From assembly GCA_937625935.1 (NCBI GenBank), contig OW569373.1:409357-473356 (forward strand): 64,000 nucleotides of DNA, given 5' to 3'. A program made the position numbers and the translations under genes. This document shows positions 32,661 to 64,000 of this stretch, one piece after another. The notes beneath the pieces are model-generated. The model searched no databases, was not told the origin of the DNA, and saw only the letters and a list, made by a program, of their open reading frames with translations. The DNA is from Tetramitus jugosus (Eukaryota > Heterolobosea > Eutetramitea > Acrasida > Vahlkampfiidae). Position 1 is the first letter of the stretch. Each line of letters opens with the position of its first letter.

Positions 32661-33719
32661 ATGACACACAGCATCTCCCCAAGAAACAAACAATCATCAG
32701 GATCAATAGGAAAAGATAGGGACTTGCACAGAGTTACTTTCAAGCTGCTCCTTCTAAATAAACGTTTGAGAAGTCGGAATGAACAATTAAAGAGAGAAAA
32801 CTTCCATCTGCAAGTTCGAGTCAAGGAATGCGATCCATTGGAAAGCGCCAAAACAACCGAGATGATAGAAAAACTTCATCATATAGCGACTAATCATCAT
32901 TTCTTGACTTTTCTGAACAATTGTGTTGATTCGACTCAGAATCCCATGTACAACGTGGGCCAAGAAGATAAAAACCTTTTGGATAATCATTCATTGGACG
33001 AACAAAACAAGTCTGCGGCAAAGGAGAAGAATTATCAAGCAATTATTGATGAGAGAGCACTCAATGATAGTTCAATCGAATCTCGAGGTTTGGATGATGG
33101 AATAGATCATATCCGACCGAGAGACACAAGAGAACAATTCGATGAATTGATGAGTTCAATATCTGACCTTCAGTCTCTGATTGTGCAACAGCTAGATTCG
33201 TCTTGCCAATCCGTTGAGAAGAAAAGGAGAAAGATTTACAGTAGGCTCGTTGACTCTTTGTTCGATCCTGGTATCTGGAAAGTGTTGAACAGTGCAATGA
33301 CTCGTAAGAAGACGACAAAACATTGTGTTGTAAAACTGATTCACCAACAAAGGGGGGGAATGACCAACGATAAGGACAACCAATTGGATTACCTCGCTTC
33401 CCATGTTGAAAACTATCTTATCAGATTAATAGAGGATGAGTTTGGTCAAGAGGCTCCAGGTGAGATAAAAGAAAGCATCAGAGAGTGCTCTGCTCTTTCA
33501 ATACGATTGGCATGTTACTTGATTATGTGCAAACCGAAAATGAGTATGATAATGCCCAAAAGAGGAGATACATTTAATTCAGATAAACATGAGAATGCCT
33601 CCTATGAATGTGATGTAATCGTCCAATCATTGAAAAGACCAGGGTTAGTATGCATCAGTGATAATAGAGTGTTCACCAAAGCACTAGTTGAATCAGAAAT
33701 TCGGAAGATTACCGTATAA
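32661..33719 (+). CDS. Coiled-coil protein A with GrpE-like C-terminal domain
   Basis: The start is set at the Met at 32661 after an A-rich leader (frame open further upstream without a better ATG), giving 352 residues. Residues 20-60 and about 120-150 are coiled coil. A conserved block reads YQAIIDERALNDSSIES, and then come DLQSLIVQQLDS and LFDPGIWKVLNSAMTRKKTTKH. The end carries KPKMSMIMPKRGDTFNSDKHENAS, later KRPGLVCISDNRVFTKALVES. The pattern FxxDKHExA, KxxG, R, A-V is that of the GrpE beta-domain that contacts the Hsp70 ATPase domain. The closest relative in the window is protein D (40758-41768). It is the outer left gene of the mirror-image Hsp70 locus. A nucleotide-exchange role for the neighbouring Hsp70s is inferred. 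Confidence 0.6.
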   Translation: MTHSISPRNKQSSGSIGKDRDLHRVTFKLLLLNKRLRSRNEQLKRENFHLQVRVKECDPLESAKTTEMIEKLHHIATNHHFLTFLNNCVDSTQNPMYNVGQEDKNLLDNHSLDEQNKSAAKEKNYQAIIDERALNDSSIESRGLDDGIDHIRPRDTREQFDELMSSISDLQSLIVQQLDSSCQSVEKKRRKIYSRLVDSLFDPGIWKVLNSAMTRKKTTKHCVVKLIHQQRGGMTNDKDNQLDYLASHVENYLIRLIEDEFGQEAPGEIKESIRECSALSIRLACYLIMCKPKMSMIMPKRGDTFNSDKHENASYECDVIVQSLKRPGLVCISDNRVFTKALVESEIRKITV

Positions 33720-33897
33720 TCTTTCGGTCTATCAAGATAAGAAACTAAAGTGTACTCGACTGGAGATCCTGCAAATTAGCAAATTTCCAAAAATCCACCA
33801 ACATCGGAAAAATTTTACAAGGAACCACCAGACTTGACACCAGGAATTGTAACATGTAAACCAACAAACCAAACCAAAAGCAAAAACACGAACAGCC

Positions 33898-35202
33898 ATG
33901 ACAACAAAAAATTATCGACCCACACCTACGAAAGCAGAACTAAAAAAAGAGGAGAAAACACCAATAAATAAGAAGTCATTACCTGAAGAGAAGGAAGAGA
34001 TCTCAATGCAGGCCAAGATTGAAGAATTATCGAGAGGGAAGGAAGAACTTTCAAAAAAGTTGGAAAAACTGACAAACAGAAATGAAGAATTACTGAAAGA
34101 AAGGGAAAACTTGGGTTCTAGATGTGATCAACTCGAAGAGAAGCTTCTTTTGTGTTCTGTAAATTCTGGATTTGTTGAATTTGTCAAGACCAACCAAGTA
34201 AAAAGAGTTGAAAGTTTAGAGAAACAAGTTGAGGAGTTGAAGAAAACGAATGAAACATTAAGAGCAGATATTGGAAAGAAAAACTCGAACAAGAAATGTC
34301 AAGAATTGCAGAATACCCTTAACATCCTTCAAAGATCAATGGACGAACTAAAGAAGGAGATTGAGGAGAGAGAAAAAACCTCAAGAAGGGAAAGGGAACA
34401 ACTCGAATCACAAATGAAGAATCAAAGTCTAACCTTTCATGCTGAAAAAGTCGGACTGTTAGAAGAGAAAGAAGCATCCCATCTCCTTTGCGAACAAAAA
34501 GACAAGGAAATAGCTGAACAAAAGCAACTACTCATAAATGAGAGAGCTCGTAATGACAGTTCCATAGGTAGTCATTGCTCCAGCAATGGAGAAATCAAAA
34601 TTCCTCTGGTTAGAGAAGTATTTGAGGAAGCGGTCAATTCTCTTTCTGAATTACTCACTTCTTTCTCCAGTTCCTATATTGGTACTGATGTCTGTAGTTT
34701 CCAAAAGAGCAAGAAGAATTTCCACCAGAAAATGATTGTTTCGCTCTTTGGCGAAGGATTATGGAAGATAGTAAAGAAAAAAGAGAAGCGAACAGAAATG
34801 AGAATCTCTAGTATTTTGACAGGAAAGGAGGGAAATGAAGATGAAAAGAAGATTTTGGAAACATCTCTGATGTCAACAATTGAGACTACTATTTATCGTT
34901 TCATTGAAGCAGAATTTCAATGGATGGTTCAAAGATCTGATGAGATCCAAACATGCATCAAGGCTTGCGCTCAACACGCATTACTCCTGGCTACCCATAT
35001 GACTCTTTGTGAGCCCAAAATGGGAGTGATAGTACCAAAATTTGGTAAGAAAGAGACTTTTAATCCTGAAAAGCATGAAGATGCTTCAGGCACCCACCAA
35101 ATGATTGTCAGTTTTACAAAGAGACCAGGTTTGATATGTACAATTGATAACAGAGTTGTAACAAGAGCATCAGTCGAGACTGTCCTAAAGAATTTAGAAT
35201 GA
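33898..35202 (+). CDS. Coiled-coil protein B with GrpE-like C-terminal domain
   Basis: This 434-residue protein has no introns. Residues 10-215 form a nearly continuous Glu/Lys-rich coiled coil. The linker block NERARNDSSIGS is shared with the other three paralogs, and VREVFEEAVNSLSELLTSF matches protein C. The last 70 residues read CEPKMGVIVPKFGKKETFNPEKHEDAS, then KRPGLICTIDNRVVTRASVETVLKNLE. These fit the GrpE pattern: GV-V-P, a loop, F[DN]P--HE-A, a hydrophobic strand, G, R, R-A-V. GrpE also pairs a long N-terminal helix with a small C-terminal beta-domain. It is convergent with Hsp70-like H1 and 169 bp from it. The GrpE relation is my inference from sequence pattern. Confidence 0.6.
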   Translation: MTTKNYRPTPTKAELKKEEKTPINKKSLPEEKEEISMQAKIEELSRGKEELSKKLEKLTNRNEELLKERENLGSRCDQLEEKLLLCSVNSGFVEFVKTNQVKRVESLEKQVEELKKTNETLRADIGKKNSNKKCQELQNTLNILQRSMDELKKEIEEREKTSRREREQLESQMKNQSLTFHAEKVGLLEEKEASHLLCEQKDKEIAEQKQLLINERARNDSSIGSHCSSNGEIKIPLVREVFEEAVNSLSELLTSFSSSYIGTDVCSFQKSKKNFHQKMIVSLFGEGLWKIVKKKEKRTEMRISSILTGKEGNEDEKKILETSLMSTIETTIYRFIEAEFQWMVQRSDEIQTCIKACAQHALLLATHMTLCEPKMGVIVPKFGKKETFNPEKHEDASGTHQMIVSFTKRPGLICTIDNRVVTRASVETVLKNLE

Positions 35203-35371
35203 CCTGAAAGCAGCAACATATGCTCCAATAATAAAAAATGGTCCTCTCTTCCCACTAACAATTATTCTTTACAACAAGTTATGAACTTTGATGGTGGTTG
35301 CTCAATAAAGTTGTAAGGTCACTCTCAATCTCCCAGCCAGTCGTCAGTTTTTTTGAATTGTTTGTACTTTT

Positions 35372-37753
35372 TTATTCCAATCTCCCAGCCAGATGAGTAT
35401 AGGTTTGTTTCATCTCCGTCAGATTCAAACCTGAAGAAGAAAAGGAACCTCCTCCAATATCTGCAAAGAGCCGTAGTAATGCATGATTGCTAGATGATCC
35501 CACTCCAACCGTATGCAACTTAAAACCTAGATGAGAGTACGTCGTCATCATGTTGTGTAGAGTGGATGAGGATCCTCCATCACTACATTCACCATCGGTC
35601 ATAAATAAGGCGATAGGTGTGTATCCATGAGGAGATCTTGATAAAATAGATTCGATGGATTTCATAGGTGACAGAAAATCGGTTCCACCATCAGCGTTGT
35701 GATTCATCATGTAATCTCGGACTAAACTGGTACTTAATAGTTTTTGTTCAAAACAAATACTAGCAGAACTCTGGTAGAGAACACAGGATACGATATCATT
35801 GGAAGCCGATCTTTGATCTAAAAAGGCATAGCAAGCTTCATAAAGAGCTCCAACACGGTTTCCATGACTGTACTTAAGGAAGTCGAGGGACGGTTGGACA
35901 TCTCTTCCACCCATCGAGCCAGAAATATCATTAGCAAAAATGACGTGATAGTTATGTTCGGGTTCTTGTGGTGGCACTTCTGTTGTTTCAAAAAGTCCTC
36001 CTTCAAACCTGATCACAGCCTCATACTTCTTACCAGAATTCTTCTCGATTGCATTCAGTTTAATTTCTGATTTTCCAAAGAACATTGTGACATCAACAGC
36101 TCTGTTGATACCCCCAGTTGTATCACTCATGTCAACGATAATCTCACCAATCTTTTTGCCAGCGGGTTCATCCACATAAGTCATGTTTGTTACAAGAGTT
36201 CCGAAAACAGCGATCGACATCGATTTTTGATTTGCAAATGAAGCTTTGTAAATCCTGGAAATTCCCTTATCGAACTCAACTTCTTCTCCAATTGTAACAT
36301 ACTTGTCAAAACAATCCATGCAATAATCCTTCGCTCCAATAGTTTTCTTCTTTTGAGAGTTGTGGGTTCCAAGAATAAATGGTTTTAAAGAAGAACAGCC
36401 ATACGTCATTCTCATTCTTCTAGAGTAAATTATACTAGGATCAGCACCAAGATATAAAGCCCCATCCACAATTGCCTCTCCTGGTTCAGGAGGTACAACT
36501 ATTCCTTTTTTCACTCTTGTACCGAACTTGTCCCTGACTAACTTCTGGAGGACTACCGATCCTCCAAAACCTCCAACAATAAATACATAGTCAAAAGGGG
36601 AATTCGTTTCACTGATACATGATGAGAATTGATCTTCTATCAGTGAAGAGATTTGATCGAGGGTGTCGACGTAAATCTTGGTCATATGATCTGAGGGCAA
36701 AATGATTGTATTACAGTCAGAATCAAAGTTCGCACTCTTCACCCCATTCTTTTTGAGAAGTGAATTAAGAACGCCGGGTGCTGTGATGAAAGCTTTCTCC
36801 CCCAAATCCTTCGTTCGACACTTAGTGCTCTCCCAATTACTCATTAACTCAAAGTGCTGAATGGGATACTTTCTTTTGAAATCGTTAATCAATTGTTCTC
36901 CAAACAATTCACACAAAAGAGTTTCAAACTTCCTATCAAGAACAGAGGAACCGCATACTCCTCCAGTACCACTTGTAATCTCCTTCAACTTTCCTTTGGT
37001 ATAGGTATGAGCTGTCAAATCAACAGTTCCACCTCCCGCATCCAAAACCAAGAACTTTTCGCCTTCTCTCAAAGGACTTCCTTGGCGCTTCAATTGCATC
37101 ATACAATAGACAGCAGCAGCCTCTGGTTCCAGCACTAACATAAAAGCATCCTCTGGAGGATCCTCGACTTCAATCATCCCAGCTCTGTATGCAGCCTTAC
37201 GCATAGCCGCCTTCTCAGAATCTTTCCAAATGGCAGGAATTGTCAAACACCAAATAATCTCACCCGGTTCAATTTCTTTTCCAATCTTTCTTGTTAGGTC
37301 CTCTTTGATCTTGTCAAACAATAACGTGAGATAATCAACAATTACATCATTTGCGTTTTTTTCCGCAGTTCCACTCGTGTCTTTCACGATATGATCGTGA
37401 GTCTGAAGTCCCATCTTGAAAAACTCAAATAGACGCAAGGTCTTGTCCTCATCACCATCCAACATTTCTTTCCAAGCAGTAAAACCCCAATATTCAGGTT
37501 CATCGTCCTCATTGTACGCAATCTTGGTCAGAGTTTTACAATATTTCACTGGTGAGTCCTCCCAGTTCAATTCCTTGTTGCTCTTCATGCATGATTCTCC
37601 AGGGAAACCATATGAATAACCTATTTAGAAAGATTTAGTGATGATGTCCTCCAATACTTGTCAAAAGAATAATTGATTACCTGTTCGTGATGTTCCAAAA
37701 TCAACTGCGATCACAATGGTTTTGGTTACTGTAATATTATCGATGATAGACAT
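35372..37753 (-). CDS. HSPA12-like Hsp70 ATPase fused to a von Willebrand A domain (H1)
   Basis: A short exon (37681-37753) encodes the phosphate-1 motif AVDFGTSRTG. A GTAATC...AAATAG intron joins it in phase 1 to exon 2 (35372-37620), giving 773 residues. The actin-like ATPase motifs are complete: LDAGGGTVDLTAHT (phosphate 2), LVLEPEAAAVYC, and VFIVGGFGGSVVL (adenosine). The divergent, long form resembles HSPA12 rather than canonical DnaK/HSC70, and no EEVD tail or normal peptide-binding domain is seen. Residues about 580-773 are a vWA domain with an intact MIDAS: NDISGSM, GGTD and MTDGE. vWA domains bind proteins through a metal ion, so this may replace the substrate-binding part. It is divergently transcribed from H2 and is the left half of the mirror-image locus. 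Confidence 0.85.
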
Positions 37754-37873
37754 TTTTGATGTTTGAAAGAAACCAATATGAGAAAAATGACCTCACAGCA
37801 AAAATCTTGACAAGTGATTGTTGTAACACTGCAGAAAAGAGAAAAGAGGGAGGCTTCCTTCGTTTTTTGACAG
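37754..37873. promoter_or_regulatory. Bidirectional promoter region between the two HSPA12-like genes
   Basis: Only 120 bp separate the start codons of H1 (minus) and H2 (plus). Both promoters must lie in or overlap this gap, so the pair is likely co-regulated. I see no clear TATA box or heat-shock element. It is the symmetry axis of the mirror-image locus. Confidence 0.5.
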
Positions 37874-39706
37874 ATGACGCCCACCATCGCAAAAGTGAAG
37901 GGAAGAAAAATGGATTTTTCGTTTGGTGGGAAACCAAAAAACATCAACATGGCTGACAAGAGTATTATTGACGAAAGTAGTGGTAATCACAAGAAAGTGG
38001 TTGTTGGTGTGGACTTTGGAACTAATGGAACTGGTTTTTCTTTTTCCTTTACTGGAGATACTGGAAAAACTGTTCATAATTTTCAGGATTGGGATGACTG
38101 TGGAGATGCGAGGTATTGCAAAAATCTGAGTTCTATTCTATATGAAAGATCAGAGGAGATTGCTTCTTCTTGGGGTTACACTGCTGAAAGAGATTATTTA
38201 ACCCAAGATGAAGATTCTGATTCTGATTCTGATTTAGATGTGGCCTCTTCTGTCCATCAGTCACCTACTCAGAAAGTTCTTTTTAAACAATTCAAGATCC
38301 ATATGAAAAAGAATCCTCACGGTAACATTTCCGAAAACGGTCTCGAACTTCCACTAACCAAGGTTATTTCAGATTACTTATACTTTGTTAAGGAGTTGAT
38401 AATGGATAGGGTTACAACATTGGACGCGACCATTGATATCAAGGATATTAGATGGTGTTTTTCTGTACCCGTTGTTTGGGAAGAAATTCACAAGAAACAA
38501 TTAAGAAAGATTGCATTTGAAGCTGGATTTATTGACGACGAAAATTGCCAGGAGAATGATTTTTTGATGGTTTCGGAACCAGAAGCTGCCGCAATTTATT
38601 GCATTGACAATGATATGAAAACAGGAGCAAAGAGTTTGAAACCTGGACAGTTGATTATGATTGTTGATGCTGGAGGAGGTACAGTAGATCTTACAGTCCA
38701 TACTCTCGATACACTGCAACGATTGAAAACAGTGACTATTCCTTCTGGTAACACACTTGGTTCCACAGCATTGGATGATGAATTCCTTTCCATTTTGAGA
38801 GAAAACTTTGGTGAAAAGAACATGGATAACTTCAAAAAAGAGAATCCCTTGATGTTCTTGGAACTCATGTCAAACTGGGAGAAAGCGAAGAGAGATGCAA
38901 AAGATTTCACAAAATCTCTCAAGTTGAATGTTCCTCCCAAATTAATGAAGATAGGAAGAGGATCACCTCTGATGAATGAGGACACCGGAAAGTTAATTCT
39001 GTCTGTCACTCATGTTGAAAGAATTTTCAAGACACCAATCAATGATACTATCCAACAGGTAAAGAAGCAACTATCTGAAACCAAGAAGACGGCTAGAAAA
39101 CCAGTTGATTACATCTTTTTGGTTGGTGGATTCGGACAAAACGAAATATTGAGAAAAAGACTGAAAGAAGAATGTGAGAAAGGTACTACAAAAATTGTGA
39201 TGCCCAAGTTTTGTGGTGAAGCAGTTGTGAACGGTGCTTGTATGCTCGGAAGAGATCCCAGTCTAATTCAAACAAGAAGATCGAGGTACTCATATGGTAT
39301 AGAAGTAGAACAACCTTTCAATCCTTCTATTCACGAAAGTGGACGATGTGTAGCCAAACACGGTGAATATTTATGTACCGGGGTATTCAAGACTTATGCA
39401 AAGAGAGGCCAAGAAGTTGAAACTGACAAGACACAGAGACATTCTTTTTTCATCGCACCCAATCAGGCTGAAGTTGAAGTTAAGATCTATTTCTCACCAA
39501 AAGAAAGAGTAAAGTATGTGGATGAAGTGAATGTTGCTCAGTTGCTTATTATCCCGATAAAGGTACAACCTAAGAATGGGACACAAGAAGTTGGAGTTTT
39601 AATGAAGTTTGGAAAAGCAGAGGTCATCATTGAAGTTGAACTAGAGGATGGCACAGTTACACAAGGAAAAGCGAAATTTTCCTCTGACAGTTTGAAGTTG
39701 TGCTGA
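37874..39706 (+). CDS. HSPA12-like Hsp70 ATPase (H2)
   Basis: This single-exon protein has 610 residues. It has the three nucleotide-binding signatures of the Hsp70/actin fold: VGVDFGTNGTGFSFSF, MIVDAGGGTVDLTVHT and IFLVGGFGQNEIL, along with VSEPEAAAIYC. Residues about 100-120 are an Asp/Ser-rich insert. After the ATPase domain comes a beta-rich region of about 130 residues that aligns in place with the corresponding part of H1 (SRYSYGIEVEQPFNPS, a KRGQEVETDK loop), but the protein ends there with no vWA domain. Later in-frame Met residues at positions 13 and 26 are alternative starts. With H1 it forms a divergent pair. It probably acts as an ATP-driven chaperone or scaffold in the cytosol. 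Confidence 0.85.
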   Translation: MTPTIAKVKGRKMDFSFGGKPKNINMADKSIIDESSGNHKKVVVGVDFGTNGTGFSFSFTGDTGKTVHNFQDWDDCGDARYCKNLSSILYERSEEIASSWGYTAERDYLTQDEDSDSDSDLDVASSVHQSPTQKVLFKQFKIHMKKNPHGNISENGLELPLTKVISDYLYFVKELIMDRVTTLDATIDIKDIRWCFSVPVVWEEIHKKQLRKIAFEAGFIDDENCQENDFLMVSEPEAAAIYCIDNDMKTGAKSLKPGQLIMIVDAGGGTVDLTVHTLDTLQRLKTVTIPSGNTLGSTALDDEFLSILRENFGEKNMDNFKKENPLMFLELMSNWEKAKRDAKDFTKSLKLNVPPKLMKIGRGSPLMNEDTGKLILSVTHVERIFKTPINDTIQQVKKQLSETKKTARKPVDYIFLVGGFGQNEILRKRLKEECEKGTTKIVMPKFCGEAVVNGACMLGRDPSLIQTRRSRYSYGIEVEQPFNPSIHESGRCVAKHGEYLCTGVFKTYAKRGQEVETDKTQRHSFFIAPNQAEVEVKIYFSPKERVKYVDEVNVAQLLIIPIKVQPKNGTQEVGVLMKFGKAEVIIEVELEDGTVTQGKAKFSSDSLKLC

Positions 39707-39774
39707 GCGCAGTTTCGAACTGACAGTACCTAATCAAATCAATAAAAATCAATGACACTCTTTATTCTGTTGCA

Positions 39775-40665
39775 TTATTCCAGTTTTCTTGCAACAGTCT
39801 CCACAGACGCTCTAGCAAACACTCGATTGTCCACTCTGCAGATAAGCCCAGGTCTCTTTACGAATGTAATTACTATCTCCTGTTCGAAAGAAGCATCTTC
39901 GTGCTTGTCAGGATTAAACGATTCTCCATTCGCCCCACTTTTGGGTACAAAAACCGTCATTCGAGGCTCAGAGAGTATTAATGTGCCAGCAAGGTGTAAT
40001 GCATTTCTTGTGAGTGTGTTAATACAAGCAAGTATTTCGACATCTAATCCTATCTCTAGCCCAATCTCTTCACGAATCAACCTCTCAACACTACTGTTCA
40101 AGACACGAAGTAAAGATTCGCAATATCTTTCACTTCCTTTGATTTCTTCTAAAGATATCATTCTCGAAATCTCTGTTTTGCTCATTTTCTTACTTTCCAT
40201 TGTTCTCTTCAACAACTTCCAAATTCCTTCACCAAACAAGGATTCTATCAACCTCTGGTGACACGCTCTCTTGCGCTCTACAAAATCAGAAGTACAGAAT
40301 TCAAACTTTGAGGCAAGAGTTGAAAGAAAGTCAGATAGAGAATTAACTGCTTCATCAAAAACATCTGTCACTTGATTGCTAACACTGCCCAAAGAACTAT
40401 CATTTCTTGCTCTTTCATTAACAATCAATTGGTTTTTCTCATGTATTATCTTGTCTTTCTCTTCTACAATTGTTTTCAATTGTTTTTCCATCAGAATTCT
40501 ACTCTCCTTGAGTTCTCTTCTGAAATTCTCGTTCTGATCGTACAACACTCTCTTTTCGTTTTCCAATCTCTCAATTTCTCTTTTCTTCTCTTGAATTTCA
40601 TTCTCAAGTTCCTCAACTTTTTTTTCATTGCTTTTGTTGTTGCCCCATCCAATCAGAGTAAACAT
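39775..40665 (-). CDS. Coiled-coil protein C with GrpE-like C-terminal domain
   Basis: This 296-residue protein starts MFTLIGWGNNK. Residues 15-75 are coiled coil, much shorter than in its closest paralog B. The shared linker reads VNERARNDSSLGS, followed by VFDEAVNSLSDFLSTL and LFGEGIWKLLKRTMESKKMSKT. The end reads SEPRMTVFVPKSG, FNPDKHEDAS, FVKRPGLICRVDNRVFARASVETVARKLE, the clearest GrpE-like end of the four. It is convergent with H2, 68 bp away, as B is with H1, which supports the inverted-duplication reading. Confidence 0.6.
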   Translation of the reverse strand: MFTLIGWGNNKSNEKKVEELENEIQEKKREIERLENEKRVLYDQNENFRRELKESRILMEKQLKTIVEEKDKIIHEKNQLIVNERARNDSSLGSVSNQVTDVFDEAVNSLSDFLSTLASKFEFCTSDFVERKRACHQRLIESLFGEGIWKLLKRTMESKKMSKTEISRMISLEEIKGSERYCESLLRVLNSSVERLIREEIGLEIGLDVEILACINTLTRNALHLAGTLILSEPRMTVFVPKSGANGESFNPDKHEDASFEQEIVITFVKRPGLICRVDNRVFARASVETVARKLE

Positions 40666-40757
40666 GTTTCTTGCTTTTTGTCGAAATCAAAACTTTATCT
40701 GAGAAAATCAGTTACAATTTCTTTTCTCCGTGACACTACGAATTTTTTTTGGACAAC

Positions 40758-41768
40758 TCAGGTGGATTTGTTGGAAGTTTCAACAAAAGCTTTGCAGAAA
40801 ACTTTGTTGTCCTTTTTGCATATTAATCCAGGTCTCTTCATCAACTCAACAACCATTCTGAATTCTGAAGTTGCATCCTCGTGTTTGTCCGGATTGAATT
40901 CACTGCCTTTCTTTGGTGAAATGATTCCCATTTGAGGTTCAGATACCACCAGGTGAGCCGCGAGAAGAAGAGATTGGCGAGAGCACTCTTGAACCAAAGG
41001 ATCTATCATTTTCATCTCTTTACCAACTTCTTTGTCAATCATAGTTTGGATATGGACTCCAATGTGTGTCTGAAAGAGACATTCCAATTCCTTCTTATCC
41101 AGTCCCTTTTCATCACCTTGTTTTCCAGACAATACCATTGCAACACCGTGTTTGGTTACCTTCTTGGTGTCCATTGGCTTCTTCAAAATCTTCCATATAC
41201 CGGGATCAAGGAGTGATTCAAGAAGCTTTTTGTAAATATTCTTCACTATCCTTTTAGAATCATCTAGAGAATCGGAGCCAAGTTCATTCCTCAAAGTACT
41301 TTGTAGATCTGTAATTGAGTCCATCAACAAGTTAAATTGCTCCTGGACTATTTGAGGCCTGATCGAACCGTCGTTCGAATTGCTAGAAACAATTGAACTG
41401 TCATTACTTGCTTTTGCATTGATTATTGCTTGATTTTTCTCGGCTATTATCTTATCTTTTGCTTCAATAGTAGTTTTCATTGCTTCACACTCTTTCAAAA
41501 GTTGATCTCTTTCGGTAGTACTCGTCTTGCATAAAATTTGGTATCTAGAGTTTAGATCTTGTATATCCGCTTCCTTCTCATTCAATACTTGTACCTGCTT
41601 CTCTTTTTCCTCCTTCAATTGTTGCAGTTGTTGTTGAAAATCTTGAATTTGTTTTTGTTGCTCTTGTAGTTTGAAAGAGTCGTCCGGAGCTGATGGTTCT
41701 AACTCGATTTCTGGAGTCTCCTCCTGCTTTTGAGTCACCCTTGTTCTTCTTGACAGTGATTGACCCAT
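40758..41768 (-). CDS. Coiled-coil protein D with GrpE-like C-terminal domain
   Basis: This 336-residue protein begins MGQSLSRRT. Gly2 and Ser6 fit the N-myristoylation pattern, so it may be membrane-anchored; the paralogs A to C lack this. Residues 30-120 are Gln/Glu/Lys-rich coiled coil. The block INAKASNDSSIVSSN, then DLQSTLRNEL and LLDPGIWKILKKPMDTKKVTKHGV, matches protein A more closely than B or C. The end reads SEPQMGIISPKKGSEFNPDKHEDA, then MKRPGLICKKDNKVFCKAFVE, GrpE-like. It lies 92 bp upstream of C in the same orientation, mirroring A and B. Confidence 0.6.
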   Translation of the reverse strand: MGQSLSRRTRVTQKQEETPEIELEPSAPDDSFKLQEQQKQIQDFQQQLQQLKEEKEKQVQVLNEKEADIQDLNSRYQILCKTSTTERDQLLKECEAMKTTIEAKDKIIAEKNQAIINAKASNDSSIVSSNSNDGSIRPQIVQEQFNLLMDSITDLQSTLRNELGSDSLDDSKRIVKNIYKKLLESLLDPGIWKILKKPMDTKKVTKHGVAMVLSGKQGDEKGLDKKELECLFQTHIGVHIQTMIDKEVGKEMKMIDPLVQECSRQSLLLAAHLVVSEPQMGIISPKKGSEFNPDKHEDATSEFRMVVELMKRPGLICKKDNKVFCKAFVETSNKST

Positions 41769-41954: not shown

Positions 41955-42240
41955 ATGGCCAAGCACAAGAAAGGAGGAGAATACTTTAAATATCTTCACG
42001 GCATTCATACACTCAGCATGAAGGATCTGAATATCTCACATCTGGCATTTCCTCATTTGATTGGTATTCTCACGCTCGATATGAGAGGTTGCCATCATGT
42101 GTCTGGCTAAGCATTTGCTCATTTGGCTAGTGTTCATTCACTCAACATCAGTCGTTGCAAAAAATCACATTTAACGTGTTTCCTCATTTGTTTGGCATTC
42201 ACACACTCCTTATGGACGCTTGCGAGCTAAGTTACTCTCC
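41955..42240 (+). pseudogene. Leucine-rich-repeat-like fragment
   Basis: About four units of roughly 22 residues follow the pattern F-HL-GIHTL-M--C: FKYLHGIHTLSMKD, FPHLIGILTLDMRGCHH, AFAHLASVHSLNISRCKK and FPHLFGIHTLLMDACEL. An in-frame stop lies between the second and third units, and a frame change precedes the fourth. This is a decayed fragment of a leucine-rich-repeat or F-box-type protein. The function is not recoverable. Confidence 0.5.
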
Positions 42241-61879: not shown

Positions 61880-62190
61880 TCTGGCCTCTTGGGTTGGGTT
61901 GGATTTGGGTCTGTGACTTTATATTCGCTTCTGAACCGACAAAATATTGCCTTTTATGGAAGAGGAGTGTCTAAATATGGTTTTGGGAGAGTTTTGAGTT
62001 TGGGTCGGGATTTATGTCATAAGTCCAATCCCAACCCAAAGGGTTTGGGTTTGGGTTTGGGACTTTATATTCGCTTCTGAACCGACAAAACATTGCCTTT
62101 TATGGAAGAGGAGTGTCTAAATATGGTTTTGGGAGGTTTTTGAGTTTGAGTTTGGGGTTCATGTCATAAGTCCAGACCCAACCCGAAGGA
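61880..62190 (+). repeat. Subtelomeric 146-bp tandem repeat with interstitial TTTGGG units
   Basis: Two tandem copies begin GACTTTATATTCGCTTCTGA at 61915 and at 62061. They are nearly identical for the first 85 bases and then diverge slightly. Between and before them are short telomere-like tracts: GGGTTGGGTTGGATTTGGG at about 61890 and three TTTGGG units at 62042-62060. Directly before the latter, CCCAACCCAAA sits head to head with the G-rich strand. Confidence 0.85.
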
Positions 62191-63256
62191 ATTTTCAGTA
62201 CAAATACTTCATCTCAACGAGCTCTAACAGGATTTAACAGGATTAAAACTCTATCGTCTCGAAGAGACGATCGCTCCCTGCTGTAACTAACAGATTTTCT
62301 CTGCAACAGGATAAAAACTGCAACAGACTTCTATGAAAGGATTTTTCAGAAAAGCTTGAGATTATCACTGGACTGTATGATAAGAGAACAGTTTTTACAG
62401 ATTTTAGACTGAAATTTTAGACCTCTAGTATTCATTTGAAGCATTAATTCAGTTATTTCTGTTCTTTTTTGTTGTTGTTTGACATATTGAGTTGCATTTC
62501 GGTGCTCTGGCTTTTGATTGACTTAAAATTCTCTTGACCTGAAGATTATCACCGGTTTTAGAGATATTACGGATAAAATTGAGATATTTCATTGTTGAAT
62601 GAAATAGTTTAGGTCTAATAGGCTCATTTTTTGAATTTCATTTTGTGAATCATATGAAACACTCTTGAACTGGAGAAATCAACTAATTTGTACCGAATTA
62701 TTGATGATGAACGAGAGATTTCATTCTTGAAGGGAATATTTTGACATATTTGACAGGCAGAATGAGATTTAAACTTCTCAGTTCGTAAGATGAGTGCAGA
62801 GTAATAGTCCAGACCCAATCTTCATAAAATAAGAGTAGATCTTGCTTGTTGATAAGAATTCATACCTATGAACGTAATTGACTGAGAAATATTGCAGAAA
62901 ATACTATTTTGGAGTGAGATTGGCTCGTGAGAGAAATATATTTCTATTATTCAGACTTCCTTGGATGCAGAGTTGAATACCCAGACACAACCTGTCATTA
63001 CTGAAGAGAAATAGAAATGATTACATGTAAAACGTGTATATGACTCACTTGATTGCCTCTAAGCTTTCCAGATGTTGAGCTTTTTATGAGGATATTTCTG
63101 TTTTGGACAAAAGCTGAGGAGTGAATGTCAAATGATGGAAATAGAAATGGGGCGAGTGGTTTAACTTCCATTTATCTTATTTGATCAGATTTTAGATGAT
63201 AGATCGGTTCTGTTTTGAATTCGAATGAAATTTTTGATTTTTGGGAAGAAAGTTCA
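62191..63256. other. Subtelomeric non-coding spacer
   Basis: About 1.07 kb of AT-rich sequence with no ORF of coding character. No internal repeat is obvious beyond scattered TTTGGG-like words. This is the spacer between the 146-bp repeat and the telomere. Confidence 0.6.
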
Positions 63257-64000
63257 TTTGGGTTTGGGTTTGGGTTTGGGTTTGGGTTTGGGTTTGGGTT
63301 TGGGTTTGGGTTTGGGTTTGGGTTTGGGTTTGGGTTTGGGTTTGGGTTTGGGTTTGGGTTTGGGTTTGGGTTTGGGTTTGGGTTTGGGTTTGGGTTTGGG
63401 TTTGGGTTTGGGTTTGGGTTTGGGTTTGGGTTTGGGTTTGGGTTTGGGTTTGGGTTTGGGTTTGGGTTTGGGTTTGGGTTTGGGTTTGGGTTTGGGTTTG
63501 GGTTTGGGTTTGGGTTTGGGTTTGGGTTTGGGTTTGGGTTTGGGTTTGGGTTTGGGTTTGGGTTTGGGTTTGGGTTTGGGTTTGGGTTTGGGTTTGGGTT
63601 TGGGTTTGGGTTTGGGTTTGGGTTTGGGTTTGGGTTTGGGTTTGGGTTTGGGTTTGGGTTTGGGTTTGGGTTTGGGTTTGGGTTTGGGTTTGGGTTTGGG
63701 TTTGGGTTTGGGTTTGGGTTTGGGTTTGGGTTTGGGTTTGGGTTTGGGTTTGGGTTTGGGTTTGGGTTTGGGTTTGGGTTTGGGTTTGGGTTTGGGTTTG
63801 GGTTTGGGTTTGGGTTTGGGTTTGGGTTTGGGTTTGGGTTTGGGTTTGGGTTTGGGTTTGGGTTTGGGTTTGGGTTTGGGTTTGGGTTTGGGTTTGGGTT
63901 TGGGTTTGGGTTTGGGTTTGGGTTTGGGGTTTGGGTTTGGGTTTGGGTTTGGGTTTGGGTTTGGGTTTGGGTTTGGGTTTGGGTTTGGGTTTGGGTTTGG
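63257..64000 (+). repeat. Telomeric array (TTTGGG)n
   Basis: About 124 head-to-tail TTTGGG units run to the end of the window. The only irregularity I see is one extra G (TTTGGGG) near 63929. The G-rich strand runs 5' to 3' toward the end, as at a chromosome terminus. The array is as uniform as expected from telomerase. Confidence 0.95.

Follow-up and report, generated by a model that had tools for sequence, protein, structure and literature searches.

Co-location of HSPA12-like Hsp70 genes with genes for GrpE-like coiled-coil partners in Tetramitus jugosus and in bacteria

Introduction

GrpE and GRPEL are the exchange factors of DnaK and mitochondrial Hsp70. The long N-terminal helix of GrpE makes the dimer, and GrpE acts on Hsp70 through its C-terminal beta domain. 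For Hsp70s of the HSPA12 type, we know of no established exchange factor. We analyzed 64,000 nucleotides of DNA (the window) from the right-hand end of a contig of the heterolobosean Tetramitus jugosus (G000:C30:409357-473356; genome 26.3 Mb), in which two genes for HSPA12-like ATPases, H1 and H2, lie among four genes, A to D, for coiled-coil partners with a GrpE-like C-terminal domain. ATPase and partner genes are co-located in this amoeba and are neighbours in bacteria, and the partners carry the GrpE sequence pattern and predicted fold.

The nearest described case is a survey of bacterial GAP1-N2 GTPase-centric conflict systems, which reports HSP70 and GrpE genes in some neighbourhoods (PMC7159879). 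In the available portions of two accounts of HSPA12 (PMC13149161, PMC2266713), no partner of the A-to-D type is named. No description of an HSPA12-like ATPase with a GrpE-like partner was found in searches of openly licensed papers. Within the same scope, no described eukaryotic module of this kind turned up, in agreement with an earlier annotation made from the letters of the window (the sequence-only reading).

Results

The Pfam HSP70 model matched H1 (E 1.4e-6) and H2 (E 4.5e-11), both above the cut-off, and the phosphate loops DFGT and DAGGGTVD of an Hsp70/actin-type ATPase core were found. Many HSPA12A-like proteins were present among the named metazoan relatives of H1 (120 of the 151 matches being listed), and the ATPases were judged nearer to HSPA12 than to the canonical Hsp70s. 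The closest named relatives of H1 among the matches listed were proteins of Naegleria fowleri (44% identity) and Willaertia magna (38%), and the PDB sequence matches were DnaK, Hsp70, and BiP. A search with H2 reported only one further Hsp70-like frame outside contigs C30 (that of the window) and C50, on C5 (E 4e-4).

H1 also carries a C-terminal von Willebrand factor A (vWA) domain. Pfam VWA matched this region at 1.3e-4 and 22.7 bits, slightly below the cut-off of 23.8, and VWA_2 scored 22.1 bits against a cut-off of 27. The alignment placed a DISGS motif in the region, which we take to be the vWA metal-site motif DxSxS, and the domain was assigned on the profile match and this motif. Both PF00012 and PF00092 are listed for the H1 homologues P0007, P0009, and P0011. 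For P0010 of N. fowleri no Pfam VWA is listed, yet a stretch of it aligns to the H1 vWA, as does a stretch of P0011 of W. magna. The domain is absent from H2, a point that the sequence-only reading had overlooked. Because only H1 carries it, the two halves of the cluster are not equivalent.

A to D form a single family that divides into an alpha (A and D) and a beta (B and C) subfamily, separated with a support of 100/99 in a tree of 13 rows, from which P0001 (99% like D) was omitted. Neither Pfam nor NCBIfam had a name for the family among the members tested. The last ~85 residues of the partner show the sequence pattern and the predicted fold of the GrpE beta domain. AlphaFold modeled D as a monomer with a 92-residue helix (mean predicted local distance difference test score, pLDDT, 79.6). 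GrpE was absent from the 50 Foldseek rows listed for full-length D. The isolated C-terminal domain was then predicted (pLDDT 89.2) and searched, and the top Foldseek and VIA-align rows were GrpE. The predicted fold of this domain and the hidden Markov model (HMM)/profile comparison with GrpE (nulls of 200 per set, with another group of tests at 400 each) supported the GrpE-like nature that had been proposed for A to D. In PDB sequence-profile searches, GrpE was absent from 9 rows and from the 60 of 176 rows listed, which were mostly coiled-coil proteins. Of eight alpha proteins compared, five (D, C50_247, C50_273, P0002, and P0003) start with MGxxx, a possible N-myristoylation signal, whereas none of five beta genes does; the frames at L032 and L034 in Table 1 are among these five.

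Bacterial and archaeal genomes were scanned for relatives of the ATPase, which gave 48 loci. Neighbours were read at 46 of them, L110 and L111 being excluded (22% identity; E 2e-8 and 3e-5). An HMM built from the amoeba partners only matched 5 of 3498 neighbouring open reading frames (ORFs), with E-values from 3e-6 to 5e-3. Each of the five shares the strand of the ATPase gene and is at most 0.75 kb downstream of it, and the match falls in the conserved C-terminal half. After the first rounds of iteration 17 loci had a match, and after full iteration 39 of 46. Because the iterated HMM contains its own matches, which affects the later E-values, gene position is the better control. Apart from the 39, the fully iterated HMM matched no more than three ORFs, of which two, both small, are in L073 and the third is in L064. 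Among the 39, the match at L095 is weak (34 residues). At L064, L073, L076, and L108, 154-460 bases lie between the ATPase match and the start of the first frame that matches, and L064, perhaps with others, has broken frames. A tree was made with 25 loci, which represent five phyla: Cyanobacteriota, Pseudomonadota, Actinomycetota, Myxococcota, and, with one metagenome-assembled genome, Bacteroidota. Across these 25 of the 39 loci, which were chosen by hand, pairwise ATPase and partner distances were correlated (r 0.84, n=25; 0 of 2000 permutations), as expected for genes inherited together.

In the reverse direction, a search of 292 cyanobacterial genomes for the partner domain gave matches at E<=1e-4 in three, two of them already known. 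In the third, G250, the partner adjoins the one HSPA12-like gene that is close to the query (55% identity); three other frames match weakly. This search undercounts, because the same model gave no match in two actinobacterial genomes whose partners were known from the iteration. Together, the amoeba clusters and the neighbouring bacterial genes uphold the proposed link of A to D to HSPA12-like ATPases.

A genome search of T. jugosus found at least nine intact partner-family members, four in the window and five on C50, and a remnant on C52; such counts of family and ATPase matches are lower bounds. All of the members lie within loci that hold HSPA12-like genes, at most ~22 kb away. On C50, a second divergent Hsp70 pair is present. 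At 247.2-253.7 kb, a broken H2 (-) and H1'' (+) have one alpha (+) and one beta (-) gene next to them, and three more partner genes (beta, alpha, and beta) follow at 266-276 kb. The cores of the C50 copies are 93-95% alike, which implies recent duplications, and the partner family seems to turn over fast there. This second cluster spans C50:232353-276221; its broken H2 occupies 250.6-251.1 kb. Between copies there is a frame that, judged by eye, is integrase-like. On C52, remnants of an H1 and a beta gene stand tail-to-tail, arranged as H1 and B are in the window. Two overlapping fragments of the H1 vWA region lie on opposite strands at C30:11453-11794; no partner-family member was found in the 10 kb around this fragment at 11.5 kb, the sole HSPA12-like trace of that kind. 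The same genome has a separate canonical GrpE gene (C6:629866).

The gene models are listed in Table 1. Open-frame reading agreed with the earlier order of six frames, A+ B+ H1- / H2+ C- D-, and with the 120-bp gap between the divergent H1 and H2, measured start-to-start. Each of A to D is one uninterrupted open frame. H1 was modeled with two predicted exons (773 aa), the intron lying just past the first phosphate loop.

Table 1: Coordinates of the features described; positions with no prefix are those of the window.
Feature	Position	Strand	Description	Basis
A	32661-33719	+	Alpha-subfamily coiled-coil/GrpE-like, 352 aa	Open frame, alpha clade, C-terminal domain aligned
B	33898-35202	+	Beta-subfamily coiled-coil/GrpE-like, 434 aa; tail-to-tail with H1	Open frame, beta clade
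H1 exon 2	35372-37620	-	HSPA12-like Hsp70 with C-terminal vWA	Pfam HSP70, VWA
H1 intron	37621-37680	-	60 bases, GT-AG	Predicted
H1 exon 1	37753-37681	-	73 nt, with the start codon and VDFGTSRTG (phosphate-1 loop)	Predicted exon
H2	37874-39706	+	HSPA12-like Hsp70 without vWA, 610 aa	Open frame, Pfam HSP70
C	39775-40665	-	Beta-subfamily coiled-coil/GrpE-like, 296 aa; tail-to-tail with H2	Open frame, beta clade
D	40758-41768	-	Alpha-subfamily coiled-coil/GrpE-like, 336 aa; N-terminus MGQSLS	Open frame, AlphaFold model
D C-terminal domain	40761-41024	-	Last helix and six-strand beta domain; GrpE beta-domain fold	AlphaFold, Foldseek, VIA-align, HMM
H2'	C50:232353-234095	-	Second divergent Hsp70 pair	
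H1'	C50:234495-236732	+	Second divergent Hsp70 pair	
H1 remnant	C52:244288-244554	+	Tail-to-tail with beta remnant	
Beta remnant	C52:244629-245128	-	Arrangement as H1/B in window	
MGxxx alpha frame	L032 1194-2444			Open frame
MGxxx alpha frame	L034 7349-8719			Open frame

Ten other bacterial neighbours were compared with Pfam: two are AAA proteins, one is a phosphatase, and one gave a beta-flower match; six had no match at 0.001. AAA ATPase genes lie in the cyanobacterial HSPA12-partner loci L065 (2149-4875) and L080 (11606-13624). Eight bacterial-locus proteins were submitted to PADLOC; the upstream AAA protein of the Oscillatoria locus L065 matched ten models, and three ATPases, two partners, and two other neighbours had no match at 1e-5. 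For the window itself, annotation as a defence system was discarded, PADLOC giving only weak matches for three of four window proteins. A viral origin was likewise set aside, as neither of two viral-contig scans, one queried with A2 and the other with H1, found a relative. A tblastn search of plasmids with the partner from the Thiomargarita locus L074 gave no match. With an HMM of the amoeba vWA, no separate vWA gene was detected among the 3498 bacterial neighbour ORFs at E<=1.

Just past D, at 42048-42223, a 45-base match occurs three times at a spacing of 65-66 bases. The window closes (62000-64000) in a run of TTTGGG repeats, ~22 kb from the start of D, and for this reason the contig end is probably a telomere.

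Discussion

We propose that the HSPA12-like ATPases H1 and H2 have in A to D their dedicated nucleotide-exchange factors of the GrpE type, a reading drawn from sequence comparison, structure prediction, and gene pairing to which we give a probability of roughly three in four. The partners would dimerise through their long N-terminal helix, and the beta domain would wedge the nucleotide-binding cleft of H1 or H2 open and expel ADP, after which ATP would reset the ATPase. H1 and H2 may differ in targeting, the vWA of H1 probably binding a client or a membrane partner. Alpha partners with MGxxx (D and four others) could be membrane-anchored, and beta partners could serve a soluble pool; judging from the H1 vWA and the MGxxx starts, some of the system may be bound to partners or membranes. 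The bacterial two-gene pair may be the simplest form, which the protist would have enlarged into clusters. Because both the amoeba cluster and bacteria hold the ATPase beside a GrpE-domain partner, the poorly understood HSPA12-type Hsp70 class probably has its own dedicated exchange factor. The Pfam GrpE model PF01025 gave D only 8.6 bits against a cut-off of 25.8, which is why we term A to D GrpE-like rather than GrpE, and GrpE was listed for none of 10 bacterial partners in a Pfam search at E<=1. The amoeba clusters may all descend from one ancestral linkage; taken alone, they are therefore weak evidence of a link.

A to D might instead be scaffolds or adaptors that keep a GrpE-derived domain for docking only and hold the ATPase at membranes or polymers, with no exchange. 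The coiled coils are long and variable (647 and 706 aa in two open frames on C50), the AlphaFold model of D has a large extra helical region, and the beta domain has diverged from GrpE to the point of receiving no Pfam call, all of which such a role would accommodate. However, most invariant residues of the family sit in the GrpE-like C-terminal domain and not in the coiled coil, and we regard the scaffold explanation as unlikely. A single chance adjacency multiplied by segmental duplication would also place these genes together, and the recent duplications on C50, with the integrase-like frame between copies, are in keeping with it. Recurrence of the pairing in distant organisms was checked against this possibility and was found: the genes are neighbours in 39 of 46 bacterial loci from five phyla, and mere hitch-hiking is accordingly very improbable.

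The sequence-only reading had also proposed that the right half of the cluster, rotated, restores the left half, and that an ancestral A-B-H unit had been copied in inverted orientation. Order and orientation are indeed mirrored at the subfamily level, a layout found in 48 of 5760 label and strand arrangements (0.8%), or in 8 of 96 (8.3%) given a divergent H/H centre. At the DNA level, the inverted matches are short and join non-mirror pairs too: among the 25 of 35 pairs listed, the longest is 81 nt at 70% between B and C, and there are also a B/D match of 74 nt and an A/C match of 46 nt. A and D, like B and C, fall in the same subfamily as claimed, and D is the nearest row to A by identity (41%), but an exclusive A+D clade cost 9.2 log-likelihood (lnL) units and was disfavoured, although not rejected (approximately unbiased, AU, test p 0.074); the best tree placed D among other alpha copies and A apart. 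An exclusive B+C clade gave AU p 0.245, and so neither clade was rejected at 0.05. In an ATPase tree of 24 rows, H1 grouped with P0010, P0009, and P0013 and left H2 outside (support 87/83), and forcing the H1 and H2 of this lineage into a clade of their own cost 15.1 lnL units (AU p 0.046). Long branches affect these trees, and on them H1 and H2 look non-sister. The W. magna vWA protein P0011 was unstable. It fell on the H1 side in a 50-row tree (P0006-P0050 of 120 listed, and 5 rows), took no settled place in the 24-row tree, and was pulled to the long H2 branch in a third, with a long-branch warning; that last placement, if right, would mean that the vWA is older and was lost from H2, as the duplication model would allow. 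The vWA is on H1 only and is common to N. fowleri P0010, and the second cluster keeps the divergent H2/H1 pair with alpha and beta genes placed differently. These results do not support one inverted copy of a three-gene unit, which we judge improbable; the mirror image exists at the subfamily level and is a poor guide to history.

The partner family offers a concrete candidate for an exchange factor of HSPA12-type Hsp70s and suggests that factors of the GrpE type also serve Hsp70s other than DnaK and the mitochondrial one. Bacterial two-gene units should express easily. A wider picture can be put forward tentatively: HSPA12-class Hsp70s may have had their own GrpE-type lineage since bacteria, the ATPase-partner unit may have passed between bacteria and heteroloboseans, and amoebae may have turned it into a membrane-tethered, vWA-equipped, fast-turnover chaperone switch whose role might lie in self/non-self or anti-parasite sensing. 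If this were true, human HSPA12A/B would be survivors whose partner was lost or replaced.

Among known systems, the GAP1-N2 conflict systems resemble these loci in that HSP70 and GrpE share a neighbourhood and some hold a second HSP70 without a peptide-binding domain. They differ in that, in the portion of the survey available, their HSP70s are not termed HSPA12-like and no HSP70-fused vWA is described (PMC7159879). H1 resembles HSPA12A/HSPA12B in that ~57-72% of its length is matched by mollusc and fungal HSPA12A-like proteins and by an Hsp70 family protein of Anabaena; unlike HSPA12A/HSPA12B, it bears a fused C-terminal vWA. The partners share with GrpE/GRPEL a long N-terminal helix followed by a beta domain of the pattern G..F[DN]P..HE ... 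PG[YL] ... RV...A.V and the same predicted fold. Unlike GrpE, they are unrecognised by the Pfam GrpE model, have an additional helical bundle that separates the coiled coil from the beta domain, and sit with HSPA12-like ATPases, not with DnaK.
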